49,538 nt of DNA from a virus (IMGVR_UViG_3300025362_000011:1-49538), one strand, 5' to 3'; positions 2,950 through 23,290 are shown, numbered from the stretch's first letter. Notes: a model not told the origin generated them from the letters alone. Numbers and translations are program-made.

Positions 2950-3872
2950 ATCAATTATGTGAATGTGGTTGTGGGGATAGAGTTAAGAGTAAGACTGCTC
3001 GTTTTATTCGTGGGCATAGTAATCGATCACTTGAAATTAAAGCTAAGAAAAAAGAATCTTATCGTCTTCATTATGGAGTAGAGCATCCGATGCATATCCA
3101 AGATGTAAAGGATAAAGTAAGAGATACTACAATTAAAAATCATGGAGCTATAGGGTATGCAAGTGATGAATTAATGCAGAAGAGTAAAGATAAGACTCTT
3201 GAACGGTATGGGGTTGAATTTGCCAGTCAATCTAATGAATTTCAAGATAAAGTAAAAGTGACTTGTCTTGGACGATATGGGGTTGAATCATGGCATCAAT
3301 CAGAAGAGATTAAAGAAAAGAAGAGAAAAACCTGTCTTAAACATTATGGCGTGGATAGCCCATTAAGATCTAAAATAATTCAGGAAAAAACTAAAGCTAC
3401 TTGTTTGAAAAAATACGGGGTTGACAATCCATCAAAAGATCCAGTTATCGTTCAAAAGATAAGATTGAAAACACTTCAAAGAATTGAAGATCAATTATTG
3501 AATGGTGAGCCATTAATGCCATGTATAGGTACAGATGAAAGAAACTGTTTAAATGAACTAGATTCTCACACAAAATATACAATATTAAAAAATGATCCAA
3601 TGGTGTGCAGAGAAATTAGAAGATATCCAGATGGCTATATTAAAAAATTAAATCTAATTATTGAGTTTGATGAACGTCATCATTTTATTGATGAATGGGA
3701 AACATTGAATGAAAAAGATATTCAACGGCAAACCGAAATCGCTGAATATCTTAATTGTAGATTTTTTAGAATTAAACAACATGACTGGTTGAATGATCCA
3801 GAAAAAGTTATTCAAGAGTTTAAAGAAGTTATTTTACTATCTCAATCTGAATCCCATCGTCTTGCACGTTAG
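2946..3872 (+). CDS. Putative homing endonuclease, KYGV-repeat / EDxHD (Vsr-like) type, cassette 1
   Basis: A 308-residue protein. Residues 3-26 form a Cys/His-rich head (LCECGCG...H). Residues about 38-175 carry six repeats of the 'RYGVEFASQS' type, each with a charged helix, likely DNA-reading modules. The C-terminal domain has RRYPDGYIKKLNLIIEFDERHHF near residues 220-245, which matches the D...E...HH layout of EDxHD/Vsr-like nucleases such as I-Bth0305I. The gene is on the opposite strand to the surrounding tail genes, follows a small RHH-like ORF by ATGA overlap, and its last 44 nt overlap the 3' end of the gp6-like gene tail to tail. That fits insertion of a selfish element between structural genes. 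Confidence 0.75.
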   Translation: MNQLCECGCGDRVKSKTARFIRGHSNRSLEIKAKKKESYRLHYGVEHPMHIQDVKDKVRDTTIKNHGAIGYASDELMQKSKDKTLERYGVEFASQSNEFQDKVKVTCLGRYGVESWHQSEEIKEKKRKTCLKHYGVDSPLRSKIIQEKTKATCLKKYGVDNPSKDPVIVQKIRLKTLQRIEDQLLNGEPLMPCIGTDERNCLNELDSHTKYTILKNDPMVCREIRRYPDGYIKKLNLIIEFDERHHFIDEWETLNEKDIQRQTEIAEYLNCRFFRIKQHDWLNDPEKVIQEFKEVILLSQSESHRLAR

Positions 3873-6800
3873 ACGAATAATTTCTATCATTAGACACCGC
3901 CCCCACATATTGGGGTGTATAGTCAATAATTTGAGCTTGAGTTAGATCTTTAATATCATAGTTAAAACGAATATCTACTTCAGGTTTTCTAACTTCACAG
4001 TATTGAACACCGGGAATTTGTCTAACAACAGTCAATATTTCTGATCGGTCAAGATTTTTATGAATACCCATAAATGGAGAAAAATGATCAATTAATTCTC
4101 GTTTAATTAAATTTTTCATAACATCTCCACTGGATGTATAATTCGCATCTAGTTCAATTTTTAAATCTATTATCAAAGGGATACTAAATTCTTGAACATC
4201 TTTCCAATTATATCCATCATAAACTAAAGTTTTCTCATCATGAACTGAATCATATTCATCTTCAATTCTAACATACATACCTTTAGATGGCTTAGTTAGA
4301 TACCATCCAACACCTTCATAATACTCAGCTATATAACCAAGATAACTACTAAGATCTCGTCCAATTGCTTCATATGATGGAACTATGCCATTTACTATAT
4401 ATTTATCAGCATCTATTGATGGCGTAGAAGATGATGAAGATGAACTATTATAAAATTCAGAACTCCATTCTATTCCAGTTGGATTTTCCCAACTAAATGG
4501 AGTTCTAAATCTACTCTTGATTGTATGATCTATCGGATTGAATTTCAGATTATTCAATTTTCCATAAGTATCTGGAAATTTAACATTAATAAAATCTGTA
4601 AGCATCTTCTTATCTTCTAAATTCAGATTAGATATCAAAGTCTGCATCACAGTTGATTCAAAACTACTAGAAGAATCATCTGCTCTTTTAGCCAATTCAT
4701 CCAAATAACTAGATAATATAACTGGAACGTTATGAAGAGAATATCTAAGATAATCATGGTATTCTCCATCCCAAGTATGGGTTTCAGATATAGTACTCAT
4801 CATTACATCACTGAGATCTTTACGAGCCATTACATCAGTATAATACTTAGTTAATGGTTGCCATGCAGTAAATTGATCTGGATCATCATCAATCTCAGTA
4901 TCTGTTAAATCTAAAATATTACCATCTTCATCAACATACCGGCCATTAGTGTTACGTCTCAAAGCATCAGCTTCAATACTGAATTCATATCTCTGTATTC
5001 CAGATGGCACATTTAAATAATTAGGAATTTCAAATTCAAACCATTCATACCCTTCACCATTTTCAATATTAGGATTCGCAGGATATGAGGCAACTTGATT
5101 GTATACTTGATTCGAATCCCATTTAGTAACCATTTTACATCTATAATCACTAATGAAATAATCGGATTGTACATCTTGCGGAATATGATTTACGTTAACT
5201 CTAATTCGAACTGGATAAGTATGAGTACCATCATATACTGATGTAGAATCTCCACTCTCATCTATTATAACATCAAAATCAACACCAGTTACTGGAATGT
5301 ATGAATATTGTTGATAGAAAGATGGATCTAATTGAGTATATAATATTGTTGGAGTCCCTTTAATTGTTTGTAATATATAATCATAAGAACCAATCTTAGA
5401 GTTTCGATTTAGTGTTATATTAAATAATGTTTTATATGATTCATCATCGATCATTACATTACTAGTTCTCATAATAGTATATTCATCATTTTCATTAAAT
5501 TCTAAATCATCAAAATTTAGTTTTGCATTTCGAGTTGGAACGATTTGTGGAAGATATTCCTCATCATGATATTGGAGAAGAATGAAAGCCATAATTTCAT
5601 TCACTTTGATATCACTTCTTTTAAGCAATGGATATGCTTCAACTGTTGGGAATGACGATCCCATGATAGTATTAATATCATCATAGTCCATTTCTGATAC
5701 TAATTTTCCTTTTGATCTCAAGTTAACAATAGCATTTCTTTTTATCTCTGGTAGGGTTGGAGTATTTTCACCACCATGCGAATGAATCGGATTACTAATC
5801 TGATATGATATCATATGGGATTTCGTAGTTATATCACTTGAAGTTGTATTTCCATCTGAATCATAACGAGCGGTAACTGAATAGGATAATGGACTTCCAG
5901 TAGTTACACTATTTGGAATTACATGACCATTCTCACCTTGAGTTATATACATCTCAATTGTGATTGCAGCATTTTGAATCGGTTGTCTTCCAACTACACC
6001 ATTCCCAAAGAAAATTTCACATTGATTAATTCCAGAAACAAGAACAAATTGTTGACTATTTGAAGATAAAGTATATATTCCTTGGCTCGATTCTGTCCAT
6101 TCATTCCATGTATACCAATTCCCATCTCTACCACCAATATTAGATTGCTGTTGATCTTCTGGATTAAAATCTTGCGAATTAATAGAATCTAAAGGAATCT
6201 TTTCTCCAACACCAGGTTCCATTACCCATAGTCTAAATCCACTAATCATTCCATCAAATGTGAATTTTTTTGAGTAAAATTGATATGGTTGGATAGTCTC
6301 GGGGATTAAAAATTGTTCAATGGTTCTTTCATGTTGAGTAAAGGATAATGAGAATGATGCATATAATAAACCATCTGTTTCACTTACAAATATTGGACGA
6401 TAAAATCCATCACTATCTCTAACAGATAAAGCTGAGTTATTTACAACAACTCCCCTAGCAGCTGAACTACTAATAAATTTGGTTTTATCATAATCAAATC
6501 TAGCAGATGGAACATTTATCCCACTCGAATCCACTAAGAAAGGTATATCATTAGCTTTAGCTATAAAATCATTGGGAATTGTAAAGGTTACATCTGGTGA
6601 ATTGAATGTTAATGGAAATGTTAACATGATATCTACTTTTGATGCAGTAGCTTTAGGAACCTCATATCCAATCCATCTTGCTAGATTATATACTGATTCT
6701 TGTAACTGAGCCTCAACAAAGAAAAATTCTCTATAAATCATTGAATCGTAGAATAAATGATTGGCAGTAAGAATAGATAAAACATCAACAATATAAGACA

Positions 6801-6942
6801 TCACACTAGTTTTATAAAAATCAACTGTTTTTAATTCAAGATATTCTTGAGAAAAATCAATTAACTGACGTCTTATTCGTTCCCGTGAAGTATATATATT
6901 AACTCCGGTACCCACTAATTGGTTGAAATTATCGAGATCCAT
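3829..6942 (-). CDS. Baseplate wedge protein, T4 gp6-like (baseplate J-like)
   Basis: A 1037-residue protein. The N-terminal region has the pattern typical of gp6-type wedge proteins: a helix reading DFYKTSVMSYIVDVLSILTANH, followed by FFFVEAQLQESVYNLARWIGY near residues 70-95. In T4, gp6 forms the inner ring of the wedge and drives sheath-contraction signalling. Here it is longer than T4 gp6 (about 660 residues), with extra beta-rich inserts and two serine runs near residues 760 and 840. It is the last gene of a run with the gp25-like gene and one more wedge gene. Its 3' end overlaps the convergent endonuclease gene by 44 nt, so its final residues may differ from relatives. Confidence 0.8.
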   Translation of the reverse strand: MDLDNFNQLVGTGVNIYTSRERIRRQLIDFSQEYLELKTVDFYKTSVMSYIVDVLSILTANHLFYDSMIYREFFFVEAQLQESVYNLARWIGYEVPKATASKVDIMLTFPLTFNSPDVTFTIPNDFIAKANDIPFLVDSSGINVPSARFDYDKTKFISSSAARGVVVNNSALSVRDSDGFYRPIFVSETDGLLYASFSLSFTQHERTIEQFLIPETIQPYQFYSKKFTFDGMISGFRLWVMEPGVGEKIPLDSINSQDFNPEDQQQSNIGGRDGNWYTWNEWTESSQGIYTLSSNSQQFVLVSGINQCEIFFGNGVVGRQPIQNAAITIEMYITQGENGHVIPNSVTTGSPLSYSVTARYDSDGNTTSSDITTKSHMISYQISNPIHSHGGENTPTLPEIKRNAIVNLRSKGKLVSEMDYDDINTIMGSSFPTVEAYPLLKRSDIKVNEIMAFILLQYHDEEYLPQIVPTRNAKLNFDDLEFNENDEYTIMRTSNVMIDDESYKTLFNITLNRNSKIGSYDYILQTIKGTPTILYTQLDPSFYQQYSYIPVTGVDFDVIIDESGDSTSVYDGTHTYPVRIRVNVNHIPQDVQSDYFISDYRCKMVTKWDSNQVYNQVASYPANPNIENGEGYEWFEFEIPNYLNVPSGIQRYEFSIEADALRRNTNGRYVDEDGNILDLTDTEIDDDPDQFTAWQPLTKYYTDVMARKDLSDVMMSTISETHTWDGEYHDYLRYSLHNVPVILSSYLDELAKRADDSSSSFESTVMQTLISNLNLEDKKMLTDFINVKFPDTYGKLNNLKFNPIDHTIKSRFRTPFSWENPTGIEWSSEFYNSSSSSSSTPSIDADKYIVNGIVPSYEAIGRDLSSYLGYIAEYYEGVGWYLTKPSKGMYVRIEDEYDSVHDEKTLVYDGYNWKDVQEFSIPLIIDLKIELDANYTSSGDVMKNLIKRELIDHFSPFMGIHKNLDRSEILTVVRQIPGVQYCEVRKPEVDIRFNYDIKDLTQAQIIDYTPQYVGAVSNDRNYSSNVQDDGIQIEIVK

Positions 6943-6953: not shown

Positions 6954-7634
6954 TTATATTTGTTCAGGAACATTGTCCACATATAATCCAATCTGATCCT
7001 TAAAATAATTGTTTATGGATAGATTTGCATTTTTAACTCGTTGCTTAGTTAGATGAATAGCATCAGATGTTCTATATATTTTTTTTTCATAATCAACAAA
7101 TGTATAGTTACCACTCAGCTGCTGATCAATTCTTTCTTTTGATATAGAACTTCCTTTAAGTGTCAATTTCCAAAATGTTATATTTGTTGATGATGCCTTC
7201 TCTAAATTGATGACCTCATATGTTGGTGTATATGCTTGAAATGGATTTTGTCTCTGTTGGATTTGATCGTAAACAATATAATCATGAATCATTGGTCTAA
7301 ATTCATATGAAGATGGGATAAATAAAGTAGTCTGTTTATCCTGGAAACCAACTCCTCTTTCATCAGCATTTAAATTAAAACTAATTTGTTCCATATTATA
7401 TACTGGAAGTGTTAATATCTTTTGCCATAAATATCCAGAAAGATCACCAATAGCTTCATATGTTCCACCCATTAACAGTTCATCATCTTTAACACTATTC
7501 GGTAAATCTAAATGATAATATGTTATAGGTAATCGAATACCAGAAGTTGCATAATATTGGTATAATAACTCAAAATAATCTAAGGGATATTCATTTAATT
7601 GAACCCATTTTTGACTATACATTATTTTAGACAT
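6954..7634 (-). CDS. Baseplate protein between gp25-like and gp6-like genes
   Basis: A 226-residue protein with many Tyr, Gln and Asn residues and mixed alpha/beta character. No cysteines or membrane segments. Its start codon overlaps the stop of the gp25-like gene by 1 nt and its stop lies 11 nt before the gp6-like gene, so the three are almost certainly co-translated and likely part of the same wedge. By position it could fill the gp53 role (wedge locking), but I see no clear gp53 sequence signature. The assignment to the baseplate is by context. Confidence 0.6.
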   Translation of the reverse strand: MSKIMYSQKWVQLNEYPLDYFELLYQYYATSGIRLPITYYHLDLPNSVKDDELLMGGTYEAIGDLSGYLWQKILTLPVYNMEQISFNLNADERGVGFQDKQTTLFIPSSYEFRPMIHDYIVYDQIQQRQNPFQAYTPTYEVINLEKASSTNITFWKLTLKGSSISKERIDQQLSGNYTFVDYEKKIYRTSDAIHLTKQRVKNANLSINNYFKDQIGLYVDNVPEQI

Positions 7635-8092
7635 TATTTTAGCCCCGCTGATATATCATCTTCAAGTCCAAACATTCGATCATTTCCATTAAATGTAACT
7701 GAAACCAATCCAGTGATACCATCTCGTTCTATATCAACATGTATTATAACAGTCTTTCCATCTGAGCTATAATTAGATTTAACGTTAGTAATAGTAACAC
7801 GATCTTCAAATTGTTCTATTCTTTCAGTGACTTCATATTCAATTTCATCTTGGGTAATCCTATCAGCCATTTCAAATAATTTCTTAAATAACAATGACCC
7901 ATAAGTTGGATCAAATGGATAATGTCCTAGAGGGGTTAATAATAAAGTTCGAATAGATAAAATAACAACATCGATTCCACTGATTCTTTGAAAATCACCA
8001 GTGGAATCAATAACAGGTGCATAATCATAAATTTGATTAACTTTACCATTTATTTGATTCTGGAAAAAATTATATTGGTCGAGATCTGACAT
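7634..8092 (-). CDS. Baseplate wedge protein, T4 gp25-like
   Basis: A 152-residue protein of the gp25/W-like wedge family, usually 130-150 residues. It has the conserved core: SIRTLLLTPLGHYPFDPTYGS (residues 47-67), then the helix LFEMADRITQDEIEYEVTERIEQFEDRV and a terminal beta-sheet. In T4 gp25 joins the gp6/gp53 wedge core and connects it to the sheath initiation ring. An SD (AAGGAG) lies ahead of the ATG and a promoter-like element (8113-8125) lies 21 nt upstream, inside the end of the chaperone extension frame. Confidence 0.85.
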   Translation of the reverse strand: MSDLDQYNFFQNQINGKVNQIYDYAPVIDSTGDFQRISGIDVVILSIRTLLLTPLGHYPFDPTYGSLLFKKLFEMADRITQDEIEYEVTERIEQFEDRVTITNVKSNYSSDGKTVIIHVDIERDGITGLVSVTFNGNDRMFGLEDDISAGLK

Positions 8093-8107: not shown

Positions 8108-8332
8108 CTATACTTTAATTTGTTCTAAACTATCAGCCTTTGCTTTCTCTCGATCCTGATCAAACTTAATTTTCCATGTGAGATATTGTTCAAGTCGATT
8201 GACAGGCATGACCATAACTTCTGACCATGACATTTTTCCCAATTCCATAGCCAGGAAAACATTTTCTCTAAAACGTTTTTCATAGCTGTCCTGAAATTCC
8301 TCACTGATAGATTGAGCGAAAAAACTGACGAA
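8108..8332 (-). CDS. Frameshift extension of the baseplate chaperone (no own start codon)
   Basis: A reading frame open from just upstream of the end of the chaperone gene to a TAG at 8108-8110. It has no sensible ATG near its beginning, yet the last 64 codons look strongly coding (EEFQDSYEKRFRENVFLAM, then MSWSEVMVMPVNRLEQYL, then WKIKFDQDREK). It lies in the +1 frame relative to the chaperone, and the frames are joined by a run of six T (minus strand) at 8319-8324 inside codons for ...RQFF. Tail assembly chaperones of many phages are made as a short and a frameshifted long form, which this layout fits. Alternatives are a homopolymer sequencing error, or initiation at an internal ATG giving about 46 residues. 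Confidence 0.55.
   Translation of the reverse strand, partial: FVSFFAQSISEEFQDSYEKRFRENVFLAMELGKMSWSEVMVMPVNRLEQYLTWKIKFDQDREKAKADSLEQIKV
8113..8125 (-). promoter_or_regulatory. Promoter-like element before the gp25-like gene (GAACAAATTAAAG)
   Basis: Matches the late-promoter-like consensus with C at position 4 and a final G. It sits 21 nt before the gp25-like start. It also lies within the codons of the frameshift extension, so coding constraint could explain part of the match. Confidence 0.35.
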
Positions 8333-9119
8333 CTAAATCAATGGATACATCCTCTACATTTCCACATTTTTGGCATCTAACTTTGCTCTTGATATCAACA
8401 CCATATTTACCAAATGTATCTTCATATACTTTATCAATAGCTTTACGATCAGTCGAAGGTAATTGTTTATAACCTTTAAGAATATTATCTCTATCTTCAA
8501 TAGTATCTGGTGTTTTAACCCCTTCACTGAGAATTTCAAATTTGTCAATAATAAGTAATTCCATGCCCATATCTCTAATCTCTTCAGAAACAAATGCTGT
8601 TTCCTTTAATAGATTATGCTCATCTATTAACCGAGGCTGACGAATGATTGCAGTCACATCAATCGCAATTTCAAACTTTGCTGAAACTCTTTTTGTCAAT
8701 ACATCTTCACCATCTGTTGGCCACATATCTGCTTTAAAACTTTTTAAGAAATCAATTTTAACACTGTTAACAGTATCACATTTACCACATGTTACATCAT
8801 AATTATGTATATCTTTATAGGTCACATGATATAGAGCATACATCAATGCATCTCTATCTTTGATTGTAATCATATTTAAAAAATCTTGAAAAGTTTTTAT
8901 TTCATCTGGTTTCTTGACAATACAATCCCATATAACTTCATTTAGGTGCTGAGCTAATTTATTTGGTGTTAATAAACTAGACTTTAATTTTTCTTCCTCT
9001 GCAACTGTTAATGCTCGCACTGAAAATTCTTTGAGGGTGTGTGGAGTTATCACGGAATATTCCGGATATTTAATATTGAAACCATTAAAGATTTCTATTC
9101 CTGCTGTATTTTTACTCAT
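8301..9119 (-). CDS. Baseplate hub assembly chaperone, T4 gp26-like, with two zinc-type Cys pairs
   Basis: A 272-residue protein whose N-terminal part (FSVRALTVAEEEKLKSSLLTP..., then LTPNKLAQHLNEVIWDCIV) resembles the T4 gp26 / 'T4 baseplate' chaperone family. Two CxxC pairs are visible: CGKCDTVNSVKIDF near residue 112 and CQKCGNVEDVSIDLV near residue 250, which could bind one zinc as a split ribbon. Its own frame ends ...QFFRSIYQ, but a +1 shift on the T6 run would replace the last residues with a 64-residue extension (see 8108-8332). It is preceded by an AAGGAAC ribosome binding site and a strong promoter-like element at 9155-9167. Likely acts in the cytoplasm during baseplate assembly. Confidence 0.65.
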   Translation of the reverse strand: MSKNTAGIEIFNGFNIKYPEYSVITPHTLKEFSVRALTVAEEEKLKSSLLTPNKLAQHLNEVIWDCIVKKPDEIKTFQDFLNMITIKDRDALMYALYHVTYKDIHNYDVTCGKCDTVNSVKIDFLKSFKADMWPTDGEDVLTKRVSAKFEIAIDVTAIIRQPRLIDEHNLLKETAFVSEEIRDMGMELLIIDKFEILSEGVKTPDTIEDRDNILKGYKQLPSTDRKAIDKVYEDTFGKYGVDIKSKVRCQKCGNVEDVSIDLVRQFFRSIYQ

Positions 9120-9224: not shown

Positions 9225-9992
9225 TTATTTGGCTGCCGTATTATCTGTTCCATGATAAGGATAATCATCTCCTCTATAACCACCCTTTGGACTATTCTCG
9301 ACACCAATTCTATCCGCTGCTTCTTGTGCTGCAGCATGAACCCATTCTTCATGCCATATCCAATCGACATTAAATTCCATATCAATTTCTAATTTGTCAA
9401 TACTAGTAACATCTGACGCAAATAAATCTTGTGGATCTTTAGTTGGGAACAAACCAGTATATGCGGCAGAATATTCTACAGTTTTACCATCTGGTTTAGT
9501 TGTCCAATACAGTAACGATCCAGCATAGGCCGATTTTGTATAACTATCGTCATGATTATTTAATATAGATGTTCCAGTTTTATAATCACGAATCATTCTA
9601 ACCCAACCATGGAAAATATTTAATATTGGAAGATGACTGAATTCTATGAATTTGATAGTTAAACTATTAGTATAATCAATATTTGTTGGTACTGACCATT
9701 TAGTTCCACCGATTCCAGTAAATTCTGTTTTATTTAAAGTTCCACCAGGGGGTGTTACTGATATACATGCAGATTCTAAGAATTGTTTAATATCCGCTGA
9801 TGAGTCAATACCAGACATATTATTGCCATCCCCATGTCTTACCATTGCTGGTAAATGAGATGGTAGTTGTAACCACTTAATATAGTGATAACCACTAATA
9901 TACGGATCAGCAACAATATACTCATCAGTACCACCGAAGTGTCGATCTCGAGCTTTGTTATTTAAGACCCCGTTGAATGCTGTTCTAGCCAT
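9225..9992 (-). CDS. Tail tube protein, T4 gp19-like
   Basis: A 255-residue protein located next to the sheath gene, as is usual for tube proteins. It has the expected beta-rich core and the tube-type segment LTIKFIEFSHLPILNIFHGWVRMIRDYK, split here around residues 112-139, where a helix follows the two long strands. The N-terminus (MARTAFNGVLNNKARDRHF) is probably flexible. T4 gp19 is about 163 residues, so this version carries insertions and a Gly/Asp-rich C-terminal tail. SD AAGGAG lies 7 nt ahead of the ATG. A hairpin ends the message on one side and another separates it from the sheath gene. Confidence 0.7.
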   Translation of the reverse strand: MARTAFNGVLNNKARDRHFGGTDEYIVADPYISGYHYIKWLQLPSHLPAMVRHGDGNNMSGIDSSADIKQFLESACISVTPPGGTLNKTEFTGIGGTKWSVPTNIDYTNSLTIKFIEFSHLPILNIFHGWVRMIRDYKTGTSILNNHDDSYTKSAYAGSLLYWTTKPDGKTVEYSAAYTGLFPTKDPQDLFASDVTSIDKLEIDMEFNVDWIWHEEWVHAAAQEAADRIGVENSPKGGYRGDDYPYHGTDNTAAK

Positions 9993-10015: not shown

Positions 10016-10050
10016 TAAAAATAGGGGTAAATTAAAAATTTACCCCTTTT
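10016..10050 (-). terminator. Terminator after the tail sheath gene
   Basis: An 11-bp stem (AGGGGTAAATT / AATTTACCCCT, 10023-10047) with a 3-nt loop, 7 nt after the sheath stop on the minus strand and followed by TATTTTT. A T6 run also follows on the plus strand, so it could work in both directions. It separates sheath from tube expression. Confidence 0.7.
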
Positions 10051-10053
10051 TTA

Positions 10054-12333
10054 TTATTTCACATACAGATTAAGTTCAATCTTTTCGATTACTTTCATTG
10101 GCTGTAATGTTACATTCACATGACAAATCTTATTTTTGAATTCATAATCATCTGCCCCGACCTCAACATCGAAATCTACAAGACCTCGTTTCGCTCTTAT
10201 CCGATCAAGGAATGGAATAATTCCAGCTTTAATCTGATCATGAGTAACACCATCATTAAACTCAAAAATGAAGTATTTACAATACTGTTCGATTGCTCGT
10301 TTGATATAAAGAACCAATCTCATTACATTAATATCCTGCAATGAAGAAGGACGTTTCTGTGTTGTTAGATTACCCCAGATTGTATAACCTTGAGGAAAAT
10401 GAACAATCGGGTTCACTTGGAGTAAGTATAACTTATCTCTTTCACCGAGTTTAGGACTCCATCTCAATTCTTTAACAGTACTGAGTGTACCACGATTGAA
10501 TCCAGCACTTGCATACCAAATTTCAAATAGTCTATCATTCAAAGGAATAACTTGAGCCATATGATAAACAGGAGAAACCCAAAGATTTCTACCAGTAAAT
10601 GTATCATATATTTTACTATATGATTCATATCTTGCAGCATATCTACTATTCCATAAACGACCACTTGGAATTGATGGGCTACCACCAACATAAGTTTCTA
10701 CATCGTCATAATCAATATTATCACCGCAATCAGAAATTAGCATACAATCTCGTCTATATACATCACATAGGGTTAGAGCTGAATCTTTCACATCTGGTGG
10801 ATAACCTGCATCATAAACCAATGAGAAATAAATCCAATCAAGGTCAAATATCTCATCTACGAATTGGCGTTTCCATACATTACCAGAGATGACATTATCA
10901 GGTTTTTCTAATAGACCGAGATAAGCTTCAGATAAAAGCTGAGTAGCAGTTTCATCTGATGTGGCAACTTTTCCAGTATTTTGATCCGTATAAACCAATG
11001 AACCTTCCGAACCTTCAGCCATAGGCCATGGTTCAATTTCAGCTGTTTCTGAATTAACATCACCCATATCAAGAATATCTAATTGATATGCATCTTCTAG
11101 ATTTCTTTTGGTAATATTAACATCTGATCTAGCTGAACTAACTAAACTAATAGCATTAGAAATAGCTTCATTTCGTGTTACAACTTCAACAGAAGTTGTA
11201 GTTGGTAATTTTCTAGCAGTTGTTAAATCGGTTAAGAATTCTTCTAAAACTTCTACAGCATATTCATAATCATAAGTTGCTAATTGAATTTTTGTAGCTT
11301 TATATCCATCAGTTTCAGATTCATAATCATTATATAATGCAGCTGCATCTTCTGGTAACGTTGGATCATTAAGATAATAAGATGCTTTATATTCTTCAAG
11401 AACTCTAAGTGCTTCTCTATTTACACTACAACGAATATCTTTAGAAAATTTATTTACAACATCTTCAATGAAAAGTGATTCACCAGTATCATCAACTGTC
11501 ACTTCATCAAATGCAACATTAAAAGATTCAACGATCATATTGTCGCCATCATCCTGGGTTTGATAAATATCAAGAATATAGATTCCAAATTTCTCTGGAT
11601 TACTATTCCGACTTAATTTGATAGAATAATTATTATAACTATCACCACGGCCAATAGCTCTAAAATAAACCAAGAATCCATTATTGAGGCCAACACCGCC
11701 AGTACCAGTAGAGTAATCACCGAGAACAGTATCTACTTCAACACCGTTAGTATCTTCAACAGATCCAGCGACATAATCAGTCCACATATAATCACCAGTC
11801 ATCTCTTCACCTAAGAAAGATTCTAATTCATTTACGTGATTGATTGAGGGATATGTCAAATCAGTAGTCTCAACATATGCATCTTTATCACTATCCCATT
11901 GACGATTTACATGGTCTTGACCATCCAGATAAATTGATTTTAACTCCAATTTATTCATGAAGGTAGATCCAGCAGTCGAACTAGAATAAGTAGTTTCAAT
12001 TTCATCTTGTCCTAGTTGCATACCTATAACCATATGGGCATAAGTTGCATCATCTGGAAGAGCGCGAAGAACATAAAGATGTGAAGACACACCCAGATGT
12101 TGCCATGCTACATATGGTCCTTGACCATAGTATTTTCCGTAATCCAAAATATTTGGTTCACCGTACAAATTAATAAATTGTTCTTTTGAAGAAACAAATT
12201 GTAACTTGTTATCAGGACCCTTTTTGGAAAGGATAGGTAGAAACCCAACAGTCCCTGGTATATCTGCCAGGTATTGAGATAAATCTATAATGCGGGTATA
12301 AATACCTGGGCTAACCATTTGTCCCATCGCCAT
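10054..12333 (-). CDS. Tail sheath protein, T4 gp18-like
   Basis: A 759-residue protein. The N-terminus (MVSPGIYTRIIDLSQYL...VGFLPILSKKGPDN) and the C-terminal domain (about residues 640-759: WGNLTTQKRPSSLQDINVMR, then IKRAIEQYCKYFIFEFND, then RIRAKRGLVDFDV) are the classic conserved ends of contractile sheath proteins, which connect neighbouring subunits. The middle, about residues 200-430, is an expanded, acidic variable region, probably exposed on the outside. Length is slightly above T4 gp18 (659). It has a strong SD (AAAGGAG), a late-promoter-like 13-mer 55 nt upstream, and a hairpin near the predicted 5' end of its message. Confidence 0.85.
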   Translation of the reverse strand: MAMGQMVSPGIYTRIIDLSQYLADIPGTVGFLPILSKKGPDNKLQFVSSKEQFINLYGEPNILDYGKYYGQGPYVAWQHLGVSSHLYVLRALPDDATYAHMVIGMQLGQDEIETTYSSSTAGSTFMNKLELKSIYLDGQDHVNRQWDSDKDAYVETTDLTYPSINHVNELESFLGEEMTGDYMWTDYVAGSVEDTNGVEVDTVLGDYSTGTGGVGLNNGFLVYFRAIGRGDSYNNYSIKLSRNSNPEKFGIYILDIYQTQDDGDNMIVESFNVAFDEVTVDDTGESLFIEDVVNKFSKDIRCSVNREALRVLEEYKASYYLNDPTLPEDAAALYNDYESETDGYKATKIQLATYDYEYAVEVLEEFLTDLTTARKLPTTTSVEVVTRNEAISNAISLVSSARSDVNITKRNLEDAYQLDILDMGDVNSETAEIEPWPMAEGSEGSLVYTDQNTGKVATSDETATQLLSEAYLGLLEKPDNVISGNVWKRQFVDEIFDLDWIYFSLVYDAGYPPDVKDSALTLCDVYRRDCMLISDCGDNIDYDDVETYVGGSPSIPSGRLWNSRYAARYESYSKIYDTFTGRNLWVSPVYHMAQVIPLNDRLFEIWYASAGFNRGTLSTVKELRWSPKLGERDKLYLLQVNPIVHFPQGYTIWGNLTTQKRPSSLQDINVMRLVLYIKRAIEQYCKYFIFEFNDGVTHDQIKAGIIPFLDRIRAKRGLVDFDVEVGADDYEFKNKICHVNVTLQPMKVIEKIELNLYVK

Positions 12334-12685: not shown

Positions 12686-13850
12686 ACGTTATTTAATATG
12701 TCAAATATGCGGTAAAAAATATACTTCTATTAGAGGTGTTTTATCACATTCATCTCAGAAACATAAAATATATAAAAAAGAATATTATGATACATATTTT
12801 AAAAAAGAAAATGAAGGATTATGTAAAATATGTGGCGCCAAAACAAAATTTCATGGATTTGGAAGATATAGTATATATTGTTCTCAGACGTGCAAAATGA
12901 AAGATTTAGAAGTCCGTGATAAAATGAAAAAAACATGTTTAAAAAATCATGGAGTCAAATATTCATTACAATCCAAAGAAATACAAAAGAAAATCCAACA
13001 AACTATATTAGATAGATATGGTGTCAAAAATATTAGTCAATGCCCTGCTATACATCAAAAAAAGATTGATACTTCAATCTCCCATTATGGTGTAGAATAT
13101 CCATTTCAAGCAGATATAGTAAAAGATAAAATTAAAGAGTATATGATTAATTTATATGGTGTAGAAAATCCAAGTCGATGTCCAGAGATACAACAGAAAA
13201 AAATAGATACTAGTATAAAAAAATATGGAGTTGAACACCCATCTCAGACGAATGAATTTCAAGATAGAAGAAAAAATACATGTCTTGAAAAGTATGGAGT
13301 AGATAATCCTTTAAAGGATGAAACGATAAAACAAAAAGTTCAAAACACAAATTTAAATCGTTATAATGTTAAATGGGGATTATCATCAAAAATTATTCAA
13401 GAGAAAGGAATACGTACCAATCAAAAAAAATATGGATATGATTATTGGACACAATCACCAAAAGGAAGACAAAGGTTGAGAGATTATCACCTAAACAGAA
13501 TTCAAAAACAATATAATAATAATGAACCATTATGGCCATTTATTGGAGATGAAGAACGAAAATGTTTGAATGAATTACAAAAATATTGTGATTTTAAAAT
13601 TAAAAGAAATCCACGAATGATTGGGTATTTTCCAGATGGTTATATAAAGGAATTGAATTTAATAATTGAATTTGATGAACGTTATCATTTTATAGATAAT
13701 TATGAAACATATCGAGAAAAAGATATCAATAAAAATAATGATTATAAAAAATACAAATTCAATCTATTAAGAATAAAAAAATTAGATTGGATGATAAATC
13801 AAAAAAATGTAATCGAAATCTTTCGGAAAATCATCCAATCTATAACCTAA
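12675..13850 (+). CDS. Putative homing endonuclease, KYGV-repeat / EDxHD type, cassette 2
   Basis: A 391-residue protein. The head differs from cassette 1: a zinc-finger-like CQICGKKYTSIRGVLSH...H (residues 9-30), then CKICGAKTKF and YCSQTC (about 51-75). Eight KYGV-type repeats follow (about residues 90-265), then the nuclease domain with GYFPDGYIKELNLIIEFDERYHF near residues 318-340, where the second-last His of the HH pair is Tyr. It is inserted between the sheath gene and a structural gene, on the opposite strand, and ends 4 nt from the stop of the convergent neighbour. Confidence 0.75.
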   Translation: MLDERYLICQICGKKYTSIRGVLSHSSQKHKIYKKEYYDTYFKKENEGLCKICGAKTKFHGFGRYSIYCSQTCKMKDLEVRDKMKKTCLKNHGVKYSLQSKEIQKKIQQTILDRYGVKNISQCPAIHQKKIDTSISHYGVEYPFQADIVKDKIKEYMINLYGVENPSRCPEIQQKKIDTSIKKYGVEHPSQTNEFQDRRKNTCLEKYGVDNPLKDETIKQKVQNTNLNRYNVKWGLSSKIIQEKGIRTNQKKYGYDYWTQSPKGRQRLRDYHLNRIQKQYNNNEPLWPFIGDEERKCLNELQKYCDFKIKRNPRMIGYFPDGYIKELNLIIEFDERYHFIDNYETYREKDINKNNDYKKYKFNLLRIKKLDWMINQKNVIEIFRKIIQSIT

Positions 13851-14965: not shown

Positions 14966-17900
14966 TTATGATACATAACATGGATCTTCTTCATATCCAT
15001 TAATATAATTCTTTGAATAATATTCAGATCCATCTCTTTCCCATATTGTTATTGAACTATCACCTGAATATAAGAAAAATGGAATATATTTATTTAATAC
15101 ATAATAATCTAAAGATGATATAGTTGAAATATTAAAATCTGTAGGAAATGATATTTGTGATTCATATGCAGCTGGGATAAATCGATGCTCCTGTGAATAC
15201 TCAGATAAAGATGATGATGATGAAGATGAAGATATCAACATCGTTTTAATTTTAATAAACCCACCATAAGGATCAACACAATATACTATTTGATCAATAT
15301 CTACAGAATCTTGAACATGGCAATTACATTTGATAGGTTTAGTTACCATCTGAATCCCTTTAAAAGTTTCAAGAAATGGAACGACATTGCCACATACTGA
15401 TAATTCATCTGGGTTATCAACATTATAATCAGGAGCATTTAAATTAGCAGGAGTAGTTTCATTTGGTTCAAATATTCCATCTACTAATGTTTGAGTTATT
15501 TCTGATTTTGGTTTACCTACTGTTATTGTTTGAGTGATTGGAACTGTTATAGTTTCTTCCATTAGGAATGAAGATGGATCATCCAAGTTATTAGTCCATC
15601 TATCTTCAGATGGATCCATATCATTACCATTTAAGAAATTATCTGATTCTACTTGTAAATTATCCGGATCAGAATCATCTAAATCATCCATCGTATGTAA
15701 TTTCTCTTTCAATTCACTTCTAAGTAACAATGTATATTCATCAGATGAGGAAGAAGAGGATGATGACGATGATCCAGCTATTTCTCTAATTTCCCAATAA
15801 TGATAACCACTGTTCTTATCAAAAACATGAACCATCTCATTTCCATTTAGATCAACATAACAATAAGGATAATCTTCATCATGAGTTGTAGTTGTTACTC
15901 CAGGTTCCCAAGTTCCATTTAAATGACATAAAGCATCTGTGAAACCAACACCAACTATCTGATTATGATATATACCACATGATTTATATTCATTTGGCAT
16001 TTCAAATATAGCAATATCAGGAGTAAATAATGGAGTATCACATTCAGTACAGTAAGTATCACCTGGATTATCCATTGATATATTCCATAAAGATTCATTT
16101 TCCCAATGTTCTCTTATTGTATATTGTTCATCTATGGGAGCTATTGGGTTCCATATAGAATCTAAATTTTCTAAAAATCCCTGACTAATATGATGACTTG
16201 TATGTTCATCATATTCCAATTTAACTATACTATAATCTTGATATTGACCACCCATCCAGCTATATTGATCTTCAATATCATCATCAACTTCAGATAAAGA
16301 TTCCCATGTACCATCTGAGTTAATCATAAATGGATCAAATATTTTTCCAGTATCAACAAGTACAGATGATATCTTTATCGAATCTGAATCAATTTCAAAT
16401 TTCCCATATGATAAGATGGATGATGATTCTATTAAACCATCCCCCGTACCATTAACATTTCTAGGTATTTTACCAGCAGAAGGTATAGTAACCCAATGAA
16501 CTTCATCAGCCTCACAATGAGAGTAAAAATGATTATGTCCAGATAAAACTAAATGTACTCCATATGTAACACATAATGGTTGAAGTATGGTTCTTACTGT
16601 TGGATTATATCCATGAGCACCATCATCTGAATAGGCACCATGATGTAATATTATAATATCCCATTGACTTGTGCTATTGTTTAATTCATTTTCAATCCAT
16701 ACAGATTGGATTCCATCTGTTAGAGTAAATATATCTACAACAATTATTTTAGCTGGACCATAATTATATGAGTAATAAAAGGTATTTGGAACATACATTG
16801 GATATGGCATATATTTTTGATATATAATACCATTACCTTCATGATTCCCTCGACATCCCATTACTGGAATTTTAGATTGAAGTTCTGGCCAGTCTGAGTG
16901 ATTTCTCGAAAAATATTCAGCTGCCCATGATGATTCATTATCATAATCAGACCAATCCCCTAGATGTAACCACATAGATTGATATGATGGATCTGTATCA
17001 ATTGTATTTAACATTGAGCGAGCTACCCTATTCATCTGATTATGATCTTTTTTTGTATCACCAATAGCAAAGAATTTAATAGAATCCAAATTAGACTCCG
17101 ATGGAGCAGATACAAATGATCCTGCGACTAAATCAACTCTATAATAATATAGAGTATTTGGAATTAATCCCTGGATAGTATATTGATGTTGATGATCAGA
17201 ATTATATTCAGCATTTGAGGTGGAACGAATTTCATATTCTAAAGTTGTACCCCATTCTATAGTTGAAATTGTGTCAGTATTCGTTTGCCATAGAACTATC
17301 ATTTGAGTAGGATCATTTGGATATATTAAATATGGTCCTTTATCTAAATTATCTATATAATTTAAAAATATTCTTTGTTCTGGACCCCATTTAATCACTT
17401 GAGGATTAGTTGGACCATCATGGCAACAACCTACATCATAATAATCACAACAATCACTAAGATCTCTGCATGGATAACAATCATGAATAATAAAATTAAT
17501 ACCTGTGTATAATGGTCTATGATACACTGGTCCAGAATAAAATGAACTAGCATCCAATACCCACCATATTGGAGTTGAATATGAATAAGATATATTTGAA
17601 TCCAAACTAGGTGCAGTTAAAAATTGAATGAACTGTTCATTAGTGGTTATACTAATACTCCATTCCGATTCTTCTAACTTAACTGAATTAACATATATGC
17701 TAATATGATACGGATTAACTCGAATGACATTTAATTTAAACAAAGTCTTTGAACCATCACCTTTAGCAAATACAATTTCAGTTTCATTAAAATTATTAAA
17801 GTTGCTATCTGATTGATAGGTATCTCCATCAATGCTAGTTCTATTCGTAACCTTATCAGCACTACCATGTACAACTCTATCGTCAAGGCCATCATACATT

Positions 17901-20900
17901 GATATTTTATCATCATCGGGATAAGGCCATCTGTTAAAAGAATGTCCTTCTTCTTGATTCCCAATTGGATCCCCTGATCTGTTTAAAGCATCATAACCAC
18001 TATAACGTGAACCATCTAAATTCTCTGGATGACCCAATGCACCAGATGGAAATACACATCTAATATTAATTGGATCTTTACAGAGTACTGGACCCCAATG
18101 TCTAAGTGATGATGTTTCTTCTCTTAAAGTTTTAACATGCGGTGAACTAATTACAGTATCCCATCCGGGTAAATCTAATTTAGTTCTAGGATGAATAACA
18201 TTCCAATCATTTTCTACATCAAGATCATACCCTGACATATCAACATCATGTTTAACATCCCTAGGTGCAATATCAGTCGAAACTAAATCATCAATCTCTA
18301 TAATAGTTCTTCCATTGGTTATAGAACCAGGTGTATCACTCTTAGTATGCCATATACCAGTCAAGTATTTGGTATCATAACAAACATATAATGCATCACA
18401 CCAATCAAGATTATCTTTTCTTAATGCTATAATCCATTCTTTATCATAACCATGGATTTGAATATTTTTATTTTTGATTAAGGTTAGGCATACATTATGA
18501 TCATTTAAAAAATATGTTGAACTATCTTGTCCTAAATCACTTCTATTAAAATAAAATCCATTTACTCGATCATCTTCAAATCCAGTGAGATACATGATAG
18601 CTTCACCATATTCGGAATTATCGGGAATCTCATATACACTAACACTATCCTCTTGATGATATGATTTTTTATACAATCCATTATTGTTTTGAATAAATGG
18701 CATATCCTGTTTGGGAATATAATCATTGATCTGTTGGATAATTTTTGTTGCTTCTGGTCGATCTTCAACAATAATTGAATTAAATAATCTATCATCGAAT
18801 ACCAAATCAATAGTAAAATACAATAGACGTGATCTTTTCGGTTTAAAGAAATTGATTAAATCACGATGCAATCCACCATTTTTAATGTTTTTATAGATTC
18901 CAACAATATCTAAATCAGGATCATTAAATATTCTCTTAGTATAATTAGAAAATGCCACAAGAAATGAATCCGCAGTAGTTTCATAGTCTTCTTCTGATGT
19001 TGCTTTAGTATCTATCCAACTAATTAGATTATTATTGAATCCTAAATTGACTTGTTTTATTTCTGGTTTTCCTGGTATTCTACTAACTCGATTAATTGGA
19101 TCTTTTTTCCATATCGATAGAATTTCATCATAGATCCAAATTTCTGGATAACCATCATTTCCATTTGAAACTAGGATTTCTCCACCATTAGTCGATCCTT
19201 CTAAACCATTCAGATCTGTAATATTCAAAACGAATTGACCTCGAAGAATTCGTTCAGCATCATATCGATTTGTTAAATCAAGATTCGGAAAATGATAACC
19301 ACCCTGATAGAATTTCGATCCATTAGATGTCCATTCATTTTCAATTAAAGTGCGAACCCATACGATAACGTCATTATCATCAGTCATCCTAGTAAAGATA
19401 AAGTTACCATCACAAACCCGATTAAAATCAACTAATAGGTATCCATTTTCATCCATAACGAGATGATGTGTGTTAATATAATTATCTAAATCAGATGCGG
19501 TATATTGATAAGTTATTGGGTTATCACATAACGGACCGACGATAAAATCAAAAGTTTTCTTTTCAATATCTGATTGGTCATCACTTAGCCATATAGTAGC
19601 AACATATTCTGGAACCTTAGCTTTAATATGAGTTCGAGAAGTGTCTGATCTTAATCTCAAATGTCCATCTGGGGTAACTGGACCATCACAATAATCCCAT
19701 TCTATTTGACATTGATATCTTACCCATTTATTAACAGATGCATAAATATAAACATAACCATCATCATAGGTATGGTATCCAAGTTCATGGTTATCACTAC
19801 TAGAATTTGGCAATATTGGTGTATTAGACCATGAAATTTCTATTTTAGTACGAACCCAATTACTTGGTGATTTACAATAATAAAAATAATCACTATCAAC
19901 AGCCCAATTCCATTGTTTTGGTTGTGGAAATTTTTGGACAAAATAAGGAGTCAAAGAACTTCCATCATGCTCAATATCTTCAGTATAATCATCAGAACAC
20001 CATGAAATATATTCAAAGAATTCATCTTGATGTTTTCGAATAGCATCATATGTTGTGTTTTGATATTCATTATGAAGGTTACTTGATTGATAAGATTTAG
20101 CTACATTATCATATTCAACTCGAACAGTATCTTGATTTGCCACCCGATTCTGATCTTCAATGATTTCTGTATATTCGAATCCATCTTCATTAAAATCTGC
20201 ATTCCGTTCACCATTATAAAATAAAATCTTATCCATAGTAGTATCAGTCTGATCCATTCTATCGAAATGATCAATCTGATATATGAATGGATATTCAGTA
20301 TCATAAAAAATAGTAGGGATATTGGCCGGAGTGTGAGGATTGGGATCACTTGAATCTAAAGGATCCACTGGACGATTTATCCACCAAGACATTAATTCAT
20401 TATTAGAACAATAATAATTAGTAGAATCTGATACATTGTATCTTTTTATGATCGCGTCTAATGGTAATATACCATCAATTAATTCACCATCATTAATTCT
20501 CTTACATAACGAATATATCAATTCCTGATATGCCCACGGATATTCATATTCAGAGTTATCAATAACAATATGTTTTGAATCTAAAAAATCATACAGATGA
20601 ATATATTGTTTATATTCATCAGATCTAATTTGAGCATATGTCCAACCAAGAAATGATTCCAATAATGTAATTGCTTCATTATATCCCTCAATCCACAAGT
20701 CTCTTTCAGATAAATCTTCATTGAAACCACTAATACCAATATCTCTTGGGATTAAATCTGATTGCCCTTGTAAATATGCATTGAATTGTGCCGATAATGA
20801 TTTTTCTACAATCCCCATGATGGTATTATATTTCTCAATATCATGAACATAGTTAACTCCAAAGTACGGAGTTATAGATGGTAATTTCATCCAAGTATTA

Positions 20901-21772
20901 GGATTCCAGTTAATATCGATAATTTGTTTTTCAGTATACCACCAATGAGGATCTCCGATTTCAATTAATCGAGTCTGAAAATTTTGCCAACTAAGAATAG
21001 AATCATCTAATAATGTTTGGTCTTGTTTCCATTCATATTTATTATCAATTAGTTCTTGTTCCCACTTTCCAGATGCAATTCCCTTCAATCGAATGTTTTG
21101 ATACCCACGAGGTTCTCTCTCAACCCAAAATTCTCTAATATAACAATTCGTCAAACCAGCATAATAAAGTGAATTAACAATTGAATCTGCTGTTCCTTTT
21201 ATTTTATATAACTCAGTTAAAGCTAATAAAAAAATCTGCCGAGAATTCAAATTCGGTAATGTTTTCTGATTGACAAAATCGATACCAAATCCACGAATAG
21301 CCTTATCGATATCTTCATCATCCAGTGAAAAGGCATCAGATGCCTGTCTCATTAAATCTTTAAATGTTCTTGCTGCCGCTGACCAATCAACTACTAGTTT
21401 ACGAAATAACTCAATATCATTTGTATTATATGCATATGATCCAAGCACAATTACATTACCAAAATAATTTCTAATTTTATCTCTAGATTCAAGTGCTGTG
21501 TTTGCGACAGTGAAATCTTTAGGTAACGACAAACTAGTAACTGGATCCCAATCCATTATATCAATCATTAAATCAATACGATTCGTATTTGTTAAAGATT
21601 CATCTGTGATATATTCTTGTAATGAAATATGATCTACCTTAGTTCCATGATCCGGACAAAAATCTAATTTCCCTTTATATACTTTACCATCAATTCTACA
21701 TTTAGAAACAATCGTTGGATTATCTTTGAGAAATGTCAAGATTTGAAAATATCTATCTATGTTAAAAGCCAT
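14966..21772 (-). CDS. Giant tail/baseplate protein with embedded purple-acid-phosphatase-like module
   Basis: A 2268-residue protein. The first ~250 residues (for example QIFLLALTELYKIKGTADSI, then YAGLTNCYIREFWVERE) resemble the N-terminal part of tail protein I / wedge proteins. Residues about 600-830 hold several diverged repeats around a W-V-R core. Residues about 1480-1565 look like an FN3 domain (MIVLWQTNTDT, then IQGLIPNTLYYYRVDL). It is followed by a metallophosphoesterase domain with all signature blocks: GDTK (~1571), LGDWSDY, RGNHE (~1643), LHHGAYS (~1708) and SGHNHFYSH (~1744). FN3 plus this domain is the purple acid phosphatase architecture. Two serine runs (near 2010 and 2190) look like linkers. 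SD AAGGAT precedes the ATG. Likely on the virion, with a possible role on host surface phosphates. Confidence 0.7.
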   Translation of the reverse strand: MAFNIDRYFQILTFLKDNPTIVSKCRIDGKVYKGKLDFCPDHGTKVDHISLQEYITDESLTNTNRIDLMIDIMDWDPVTSLSLPKDFTVANTALESRDKIRNYFGNVIVLGSYAYNTNDIELFRKLVVDWSAAARTFKDLMRQASDAFSLDDEDIDKAIRGFGIDFVNQKTLPNLNSRQIFLLALTELYKIKGTADSIVNSLYYAGLTNCYIREFWVEREPRGYQNIRLKGIASGKWEQELIDNKYEWKQDQTLLDDSILSWQNFQTRLIEIGDPHWWYTEKQIIDINWNPNTWMKLPSITPYFGVNYVHDIEKYNTIMGIVEKSLSAQFNAYLQGQSDLIPRDIGISGFNEDLSERDLWIEGYNEAITLLESFLGWTYAQIRSDEYKQYIHLYDFLDSKHIVIDNSEYEYPWAYQELIYSLCKRINDGELIDGILPLDAIIKRYNVSDSTNYYCSNNELMSWWINRPVDPLDSSDPNPHTPANIPTIFYDTEYPFIYQIDHFDRMDQTDTTMDKILFYNGERNADFNEDGFEYTEIIEDQNRVANQDTVRVEYDNVAKSYQSSNLHNEYQNTTYDAIRKHQDEFFEYISWCSDDYTEDIEHDGSSLTPYFVQKFPQPKQWNWAVDSDYFYYCKSPSNWVRTKIEISWSNTPILPNSSSDNHELGYHTYDDGYVYIYASVNKWVRYQCQIEWDYCDGPVTPDGHLRLRSDTSRTHIKAKVPEYVATIWLSDDQSDIEKKTFDFIVGPLCDNPITYQYTASDLDNYINTHHLVMDENGYLLVDFNRVCDGNFIFTRMTDDNDVIVWVRTLIENEWTSNGSKFYQGGYHFPNLDLTNRYDAERILRGQFVLNITDLNGLEGSTNGGEILVSNGNDGYPEIWIYDEILSIWKKDPINRVSRIPGKPEIKQVNLGFNNNLISWIDTKATSEEDYETTADSFLVAFSNYTKRIFNDPDLDIVGIYKNIKNGGLHRDLINFFKPKRSRLLYFTIDLVFDDRLFNSIIVEDRPEATKIIQQINDYIPKQDMPFIQNNNGLYKKSYHQEDSVSVYEIPDNSEYGEAIMYLTGFEDDRVNGFYFNRSDLGQDSSTYFLNDHNVCLTLIKNKNIQIHGYDKEWIIALRKDNLDWCDALYVCYDTKYLTGIWHTKSDTPGSITNGRTIIEIDDLVSTDIAPRDVKHDVDMSGYDLDVENDWNVIHPRTKLDLPGWDTVISSPHVKTLREETSSLRHWGPVLCKDPINIRCVFPSGALGHPENLDGSRYSGYDALNRSGDPIGNQEEGHSFNRWPYPDDDKISMYDGLDDRVVHGSADKVTNRTSIDGDTYQSDSNFNNFNETEIVFAKGDGSKTLFKLNVIRVNPYHISIYVNSVKLEESEWSISITTNEQFIQFLTAPSLDSNISYSYSTPIWWVLDASSFYSGPVYHRPLYTGINFIIHDCYPCRDLSDCCDYYDVGCCHDGPTNPQVIKWGPEQRIFLNYIDNLDKGPYLIYPNDPTQMIVLWQTNTDTISTIEWGTTLEYEIRSTSNAEYNSDHQHQYTIQGLIPNTLYYYRVDLVAGSFVSAPSESNLDSIKFFAIGDTKKDHNQMNRVARSMLNTIDTDPSYQSMWLHLGDWSDYDNESSWAAEYFSRNHSDWPELQSKIPVMGCRGNHEGNGIIYQKYMPYPMYVPNTFYYSYNYGPAKIIVVDIFTLTDGIQSVWIENELNNSTSQWDIIILHHGAYSDDGAHGYNPTVRTILQPLCVTYGVHLVLSGHNHFYSHCEADEVHWVTIPSAGKIPRNVNGTGDGLIESSSILSYGKFEIDSDSIKISSVLVDTGKIFDPFMINSDGTWESLSEVDDDIEDQYSWMGGQYQDYSIVKLEYDEHTSHHISQGFLENLDSIWNPIAPIDEQYTIREHWENESLWNISMDNPGDTYCTECDTPLFTPDIAIFEMPNEYKSCGIYHNQIVGVGFTDALCHLNGTWEPGVTTTTHDEDYPYCYVDLNGNEMVHVFDKNSGYHYWEIREIAGSSSSSSSSSSDEYTLLLRSELKEKLHTMDDLDDSDPDNLQVESDNFLNGNDMDPSEDRWTNNLDDPSSFLMEETITVPITQTITVGKPKSEITQTLVDGIFEPNETTPANLNAPDYNVDNPDELSVCGNVVPFLETFKGIQMVTKPIKCNCHVQDSVDIDQIVYCVDPYGGFIKIKTMLISSSSSSSSLSEYSQEHRFIPAAYESQISFPTDFNISTISSLDYYVLNKYIPFFLYSGDSSITIWERDGSEYYSKNYINGYEEDPCYVS

Positions 21773-22093: not shown

Positions 22094-23290
22094 TTAATCA
22101 CTTGGTTCACTAAAAGGACTACGGGGATTAGCATATGACCAGATAAACTTAACTAATTCATCTAATACAAAATCATCCCTCAATAGAATAACTTCTGCCT
22201 TAACATCATTAGGGTCTTCTGTATTGATAGTAATAGTGAAATCCTCATCTTGACTTAATATCAAACCATCTTTAAAAAATGTAAAATCTCTTCTATTCCA
22301 TGGTAATTGATCACCAGTTAATATGAACTTGTTATCAGAGAGGACTTCATCAGTAACTTTAGTAATGAGAACTTTCTTTTTAAGCATAATAAAGAAATCC
22401 TCTTCAATAATTTTAATATCATTATTGATAACTTCAGAGTCTCTCCATATAATTCCATATGATTTCTGTCTTACTAAGTATAAAATATCCAAGACATGTT
22501 TCTCATATAAACAACATAGAGCTTCATCTGATGTGGATGATATACCTTCAATTCCATCATAATAGATATAGCTATCGTTCAACATTGCATCTAAATAAAC
22601 ATAAATCAATCTTGCTATATTTGAATCTAAATCTTCATATACTATATCATTAATGTTAACATATACGCATCCCGTCTTATAGAACCATAACTTATCTAAC
22701 ATATCCAGAGTTGAGTCACTGAAATCAAAAACATCTGGTGGAGCTATGATAGGTAAATCTTCTTGGGGATTATCTTCGATATCCGGATCTCCAGAAGTCC
22801 ACAATGGCTGATTTCCAGTGCTAGCATTGTATGAGTTATATGTAATATATGGACTTCTATCCTCTTCTTCAACATCAAAAGGCATATATACTTCATTACC
22901 TGAATAGAAATGTGGATCCATTTTAGATCCACTCATATCAAATAAATCAATAAATTTCATAGAATTGGCTCCATATACATTAGCCCACCATCTATACACT
23001 TGTATCCGATTAAGTAAAATTTTATCAGGAAGATTCAAAATATTCATTCTTCGATAGAGATAAATATAAGGTCTATCATTTTTACTTTCTATTGTGATAG
23101 CTGAAGAACTAGATGATAATTCACCTGGATCAAAAGTTTCATTAAACAGAAGCTCAATAACACTTCTTGGATCTCTCCAATACTCACTAACATCTACTGG
23201 GATTTTATGATATGTATCATAAACTTCACTATTTCTCAATATTCTTTTGAACCAATAGTTTAATTCAGGTATAATATTAATGTGTTTCAC
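22094..23290 (-). CDS. Probable virion structural protein (GTG start)
   Basis: A 398-residue acidic protein with serine run SSSSS near residue 60 and many aromatic residues (for example NRIQVYRWWANVYGANSMKF near 92-111). No enzymatic motif. The start is GTG, and it shares one base with the TAG stop of the upstream 54-codon gene (TAGTG), so translation is probably coupled. Its position with other serine-run proteins argues for a tail or baseplate component. Confidence 0.55.
   Translation of the reverse strand: MKHINIIPELNYWFKRILRNSEVYDTYHKIPVDVSEYWRDPRSVIELLFNETFDPGELSSSSSAITIESKNDRPYIYLYRRMNILNLPDKILLNRIQVYRWWANVYGANSMKFIDLFDMSGSKMDPHFYSGNEVYMPFDVEEEDRSPYITYNSYNASTGNQPLWTSGDPDIEDNPQEDLPIIAPPDVFDFSDSTLDMLDKLWFYKTGCVYVNINDIVYEDLDSNIARLIYVYLDAMLNDSYIYYDGIEGISSTSDEALCCLYEKHVLDILYLVRQKSYGIIWRDSEVINNDIKIIEEDFFIMLKKKVLITKVTDEVLSDNKFILTGDQLPWNRRDFTFFKDGLILSQDEDFTITINTEDPNDVKAEVILLRDDFVLDELVKFIWSYANPRSPFSEPSD

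Follow-up and report, generated by a model that had tools for sequence, protein, structure and literature searches.

A metallophosphoesterase module in a giant tail-type protein

The 49,538-nt uncultivated-phage contig IMGVR_UViG_3300025362_000011 (the whole stretch of DNA analyzed, hereafter the window) encodes on its minus strand a 2268-residue protein, and the open reading frame (ORF) exactly matches the coordinates and length given in a preliminary description of the sequence. That description placed within this protein an FN3-like domain directly followed by a full set of metallophosphoesterase (MPE) motifs. Indeed, all five motifs are located where it had put them (Table 1), and both domains gave significant Pfam matches, PF00149 scoring 48.3 bits against a cut-off of 21.5 and PF16656 likewise exceeding its curated cut-off. 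A phmmer search of the PDB further matched the module to purple acid phosphatases (PAPs) of kidney bean and sweet potato (6e-7 to 2e-5), of which the kidney-bean enzyme was the best (6e-7).

Table 1. Coordinates of the module, its carrier protein and the neighboring tail genes in the window
Feature	Residues	Position	Strand	Basis
Giant baseplate/tail scaffold protein	2268 aa	14966..21772	-	ORF translation; syntenic homologues
Inserted FN3-PAP-like module	~1465-1838	16259..17380	-	Missing in four close homologues; AlphaFold2 pLDDT 89
FN3-like Pur_ac_phosph_N domain	1481-1547	17132..17332	-	Pfam PF16656 E 1.3e-9, PF00041 1.3e-5
Metallophosphoesterase domain	1566-1749	16526..17077	-	Pfam PF00149 Metallophos E 2.2e-12; VIA Z 39.9 to 6hwr_D
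GDTK motif, metal ligand D1572	1571	17051..17062	-	Invariant in 55 aligned sequences
GDWSDY motif, metal ligand D1606	1605	16943..16960	-	D invariant in 55; PAP Tyr position = D1609
GNHE (RGNHE from 1641), ligand N1643 and histidine H1644		16838..16849	-	G-N-H invariant in 55
LHHG motif, ligand H1710	1709	16637..16648	-	H invariant in 55
GHNH (SGHNH from 1744), ligands H1746 and H1748		16529..16540	-	G-H-x-H invariant in 55
Fiber-type domain (YVNSV), ~75 aa	~1331-1401	17570..17782	-	Local alignment with L022
Conserved N-terminal stretch (LLALxELYKxKGTxxSI)	~175-229	21086..21250	-	Aligns to L015 Tail_P2_I match
Poly-Ser linker	2001-2010	15743..15772	-	Sequence
Poly-Ser linker	2181-2188	15209..15232	-	Sequence
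Virion protein downstream, syntenic marker in relatives	345 aa	13855..14892	-	PHROG virion structural 9.8e-8; 19 loci
Tail sheath		10054..12333	-	PHROG tail sheath 5e-66
Tail tube/virion structural protein		9225..9992	-	Profile match
T4-type baseplate hub protein (T4_baseplate family)		8301..9119	-	PF12322 1.5e-12
gp25-like baseplate wedge subunit		7634..8092	-	Profile match
gp6/J-like baseplate wedge subunit		3829..6942	-	PHROG 9e-24

Structure prediction, which the preliminary description had put forward as a check, recovered a PAP fold. AlphaFold2, run on an alignment of 55 sequences built from genome-contig loci, modeled the module with a predicted local distance difference test (pLDDT) of 89.1 and a predicted template modeling score (pTM) of 0.89, while the single-sequence run on residues 1430-1860 reached a pLDDT of only 36. 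The model superposes on plant PAPs across both domains, with model residues 8-367 spanned, as evidenced by Foldseek and VIA-align; the latter aligned 349 residues to kidney-bean PAP 6hwr_D (Z 39.9, root-mean-square deviation 2.8, 22% identity). Rv0805 and GpdQ were also among the structural matches. Residues D1572, D1606, N1643, H1710, H1746, and H1748 are the counterparts of the six PAP metal ligands, and all of them are invariant in the 55 sequences. The module thereby presents the D, D, N, H, H, H ligand set plus GNH[ED] that characterize the MPE superfamily. Pfam scores above cut-off, the PAP match in phmmer, relatives at 36-39% identity (see below), and the quality of both model and superposition collectively show that the motifs are no chance occurrence.

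The purple acid phosphatase label itself holds in part. It is backed by the fold, the FN3-MPE layout, and the six ligands, but a strict PAP assignment fails on the Tyr ligand to Fe(III), whose position in the PAP GDxxY motif is occupied by Asp1609 in the module (GD-W-S-D-Y, with Tyr at D+4). GDWSDY contributes the metal ligand D1606 but does not reproduce GDxxY, since Asp stands at D+3. The nearest relatives of the module likewise have no Tyr at this position. Because this purple-conferring residue is missing, we regard the module as PAP-like rather than strictly PAP; it is probably a dinuclear metallophosphoesterase, not a purple one, and the phosphatase domain is complete and apparently active.

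Empty sites in relatives and origin of the module

To place the module in its phage group, related IMG/VR contigs were collected via the genes encoding the sheath and the 345-aa virion protein; a sheath alignment that included cultured jumbo phages was too diverse for use as a scanning query. Gene order around the scaffold is kept in these contigs. Syntenic homologues of the 2268-aa protein are full-length at three loci (L020, 2347 aa; L021, 2449 aa; L022, 2034 aa) and 5'-cut at a fourth (L013), with scaffold identities of 38-45% to the window protein, and distant homologues occupy the same gene position in L034 (a 321,650-base contig), L035, and L015. In all four close homologues the module is missing. 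Residues 1401-1464 and 1839-2101 of the window protein align directly to them, and where the window protein has about 370 residues of FN3 and MPE, they have a loop that extends about 0-18 residues past the alignable flanks. In L020-L022 this loop is rich in Ser (as in VVMWGYNSVYSSSSGSAGNQWEPGQYSDFN of L021).

PF16656 was looked for in 24 records of related viruses, many of them fragments, and occurred in none. Presence in related phages, another check proposed beforehand, thus turned out negative, and together with the four empty sites this result rules out the module as a marker of the whole phage group. As for PF00149 matches in related virus records, L036 is SbcCD-like on reading, and the remaining ones were judged by frame length. 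An ORF in the same place at locus L008 was considered as a further empty-site case and set aside, being 5'-truncated and without similarity. GC content at third codon positions (GC3) is 0.147 in the module and 0.13-0.18 in its flanks, and codon usage is also equal; this speaks against both a chimera and a recently gained foreign segment.

The closest kin of the module are secreted-type proteins from six Paenibacillus genomes and a Geobacter metagenome-assembled genome, which are 36-39% identical to it across some 280-360 aa, followed by a Candidatus Fischerbacteria relative (34%); other relatives mostly range from 22 to 30%. The window module and the Paenibacillus/Geobacter set form one branch (Shimodaira-Hasegawa-like approximate likelihood ratio test, 99), on which the window end branch is long (1.46), and they have the GHNH form in common. 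Since its nearest kin are secreted phosphatases, the module was probably acquired as a unit.

Elsewhere along this scaffold, other modules are found. The L021 homologue contains a lectin-type Laminin_G_3 domain (residues 1233-1405, E 5.3e-14) inserted near window residue 1202, and in the L020 homologue six Asp-box (BNR) repeats recur every 40 residues. The fiber-type domain of the window protein sits at another site in L022 (score 64, reached by 0 of 1000 shuffles), and a different small domain is common to L020-L022 and the L008 ORF. These lectin, BNR, and fiber-type modules compose the pattern expected of a modular host-contact protein, which is the function we infer for the scaffold. At its C-terminus (residues ~2271-2401), the 2449-aa L021 protein also bears a leucine-rich-repeat-like extension (phrog_7816, 5e-18) that is missing from the window protein.

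Baseplate context and other genes in the window

The scaffold gene lies upstream of the genes for the 345-aa protein, sheath, tube, hub, and gp25-like and gp6/J-like subunits, all on the same strand. The tail/baseplate role assigned in the preliminary description agrees with this synteny and with the distant homologue L015, which passes the Pfam Tail_P2_I model (PF09684; E 1.2e-4, 22.4 bits against a cut-off of 20.6) in the conserved N-terminal stretch. The same hidden Markov model yields no match in the window protein itself, which reaches the family only via L015, and an hhalign comparison with SP-15 gp55, a guessed counterpart, was not significant (P 0.39). Baseplate identity is for these two reasons drawn mainly from synteny, and the scaffold N-terminus is probably P2 gpI/T4 gp7-like.

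Poly-Ser runs of 4-10 residues recur in several virion-type proteins of the window (14966-21772, 3829-6942, and 22094-23290, all on the minus strand). The L020-L022 homologues have them too, and this phage group seems to use such runs repeatedly as linkers.

The plus strand encodes a second, unrelated metallophosphoesterase at the C-terminus of a 628-aa protein (32009-33895; PF00149 7.9e-9, YfcE-like below cut-off). It also carries a 265-aa caspase-domain protein (35511-36308; PF00656, E 1.3e-20) with SSHGT and DCCHSG motifs, that is, a metacaspase-like protease; a peptide deformylase fused to a SEC-C motif (40355-40927; 1.8e-25); and a DUF2201 putative metallopeptidase/VWA-like protein adjoining an AAA ATPase in a MoxR-like pairing (25055-26416 and 26583-27824). 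Four plus-strand ORFs (2946-3872, 12675-13850, 28048-29037, and 33901-34587) have similar C-terminal parts, the first three with KKYGVDNP-type repeats and DUF7487 matches. One of the four is antisense to and adjoins the sheath gene, and L008 and L010 have others at different places; these ORFs look like scattered mobile endonuclease genes.

Proposed function and comparison with known systems

Most phage tail enzymes known to act on host surfaces are glycan hydrolases, lyases, esterases, or glycerophosphodiesterases. For the window protein, we lean, with somewhat better than even confidence, toward a virion-borne phosphatase that acts on envelope polymers at adsorption. A large contractile-tailed phage would have acquired a secreted bacterial-type unit of FN3 and PAP-like MPE, which would have entered a variable and presumably exposed loop of its giant baseplate scaffold, leaving the scaffold intact on either side. 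With its dinuclear metal site kept, the module would be displayed at the tail base as a phosphomonoesterase or phosphodiesterase and, at adsorption, may remove or cleave phosphates on host polymers of the teichoic acid, phospho-glycan, or lipopolysaccharide type. Together with the lectin, BNR repeats, and small fiber domains, the phosphatase would make up a set of surface modules that can replace one another. Catalysis is supported by the intact active site and the kinship to secreted enzymes, and surface contact by the accompanying modules. Weighing against this proposal are the missing Tyr, the two unsuccessful comparisons of the scaffold (Tail_P2_I and SP-15 gp55), and the restriction of the module to one contig within its phage group.

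We consider four alternatives, all of which we rate below virion-borne envelope dephosphorylation. The module could instead be displayed for binding alone, to phosphorylated or carbohydrate ligands, with catalysis incidental or lost. This is unlikely, given that none of the six metal ligands is missing and the GNHE histidine is likewise intact, even if a lectin-type domain belongs to the scaffold repertoire and a PAP-like protein with lost ligands at another viral locus (L145, see below) suggests that phages can retain the fold when the metal site is incomplete. Sequence cannot tell envelope dephosphorylation apart from phosphate scavenging, whereby an enzyme bound to virions or released from cells would supply the infected cell with phosphate taken from organic phosphorus. 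Secretion of the nearest kin fits this reading, and a nutritional role of the bacterial PAP-like relatives is plausible; we nevertheless hold scavenging to be improbable, because the few copies per virion on a baseplate scaffold would make a poor phosphate supply, the enzyme has no stand-alone gene, and no phosphate-stress genes were noticed adjoining it.

Slightly less probable still is that the domain is delivered into the cell or acts there, with cyclic nucleotides or other signaling molecules as possible targets. MPE folds do include nucleotide phosphodiesterases, as the Rv0805 and GpdQ matches recall, and the mycobacteriophage MPE gp48 has been reported to evade immunity (PMC12287305). 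However, the closest kin in structure and sequence are secreted FN3-bearing PAP types rather than intracellular ones, and the module is located on a baseplate scaffold with lectin-like modules. That an assembly error joined a bacterial gene fragment into the phage ORF is very improbable: its occurrence in one contig would fit, but the reading frame is open across both junctions, no bacterial protein found exceeds 36-39% identity, and GC3 and codon usage are the phage's own.

The preliminary description knew of no standard T4-type counterpart, but PAP-like domains in tail-type phage proteins do have precedents. The top viral fold match of the module is Bacillus phage G gp352, which consists of an Mtd_N-like part (just below cut-off) and an LTD-like part followed by PF16656 and PF00149. 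DAC22 and other Bacteroides phages, as well as Crassvirales, encode proteins that resemble gp352 and are annotated 'phosphatase'. In Crassvirales, crAss002 gp19 matches PF00149 (7e-7), and according to a review, annotations of tail spikes include phosphatase domains (PMC10136315). The tree rejects one clade of window, gp352, and crAss002 (approximately unbiased test, p-AU 0.006) as well as a clade of window and gp352 alone (p 0.0002), which discards a shared phage lineage. This separate gp352/Crassvirales lineage suggests repeated recruitment, and independent recruitment of PAP-like phosphatases into phages is likely, though not proven owing to the long branches in the tree. We extend this only tentatively, and with clear doubt, to the idea that the scaffold is an exchangeable display platform for lectins, propeller-type repeats, and enzymes, and that PAP-like phosphatases entered host-contact proteins of phage tails independently at least twice as phosphate-stripping host-range tools.

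A PAP match in MT837099 ('Bacteriophage sp.') was not counted as a precedent, its neighbors being bacterial-type genes. Most of what the DNA pattern GNH..GHxHxY retrieved from viral contigs was SbcD/Mre11-like or belonged to other intracellular types of MPE; one match was a PAP-like protein whose N-terminus is of the signal type. On the 92.7-kb virus contig L145, a PAP-like protein (9125-10588, plus strand; Metallophos_C 2.9e-7) adjoining fiber-like ORFs reads GDQE for GNHE and GHPY for GHxH, and is possibly a pseudo-enzyme.

What the analysis adds to the preliminary description is the comparison of empty sites, the exchangeable modules, the kinship to secreted bacterial proteins, the absence of the Tyr, and the phage precedents in a separate lineage. 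A baseplate phosphatase with relatives empty at the exact site offers a clean natural experiment on enzyme gain by tail proteins and leads to a claim open to testing, namely that phages target envelope phosphate decorations when they adsorb; its separation from the phage G/Crassvirales lineage suggests that the activity has been repeatedly useful.

Among known systems, the secreted FN3-MPE proteins of Paenibacillus, Geobacter, and Candidatus Fischerbacteria (L065-L072) are the closest in sequence, with 34-40% identity over the same extent, RGNHEG and GHNH motifs, and no PAP Tyr. They are, however, cellular proteins with a signal-type N-terminal sequence, in some cases with C-terminal repeats that by eye resemble S-layer-type anchors, and not virion scaffolds. 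The kidney-bean and sweet-potato PAPs (PF16656 and PF00149) have the same two-domain fold, six ligands, GNHE, and GHxH, but differ in the GDxxY Tyr (Asp in the module), in sequence (22% identity), and in that the module is embedded in a phage baseplate-type protein. P2 gpI and T4 gp7 are linked to the scaffold by the L015 match above the Tail_P2_I cut-off; P2 gpI is far shorter, whereas the window protein, itself undetected by this model, carries inserted modules. Phage G gp352 is similarly a large phage protein with PF16656, PF00149, and fiber-like N-terminal parts, but it is a separate gene with Mtd_N/LTD-like parts and belongs to another PAP lineage. The Crassvirales 'phosphatase' proteins (crAss002 gp19 and kin) also combine an MPE domain with a large protein encoded beside structural genes, and differ in their podovirus-type tail spike, gp352-like architecture, and separate PAP lineage. 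Microbacterium phages Rowlf (gp26) and those of cluster EK1 likewise bear PAP-like genes, variably present among close relatives (PMC12352085, PMC13014141).

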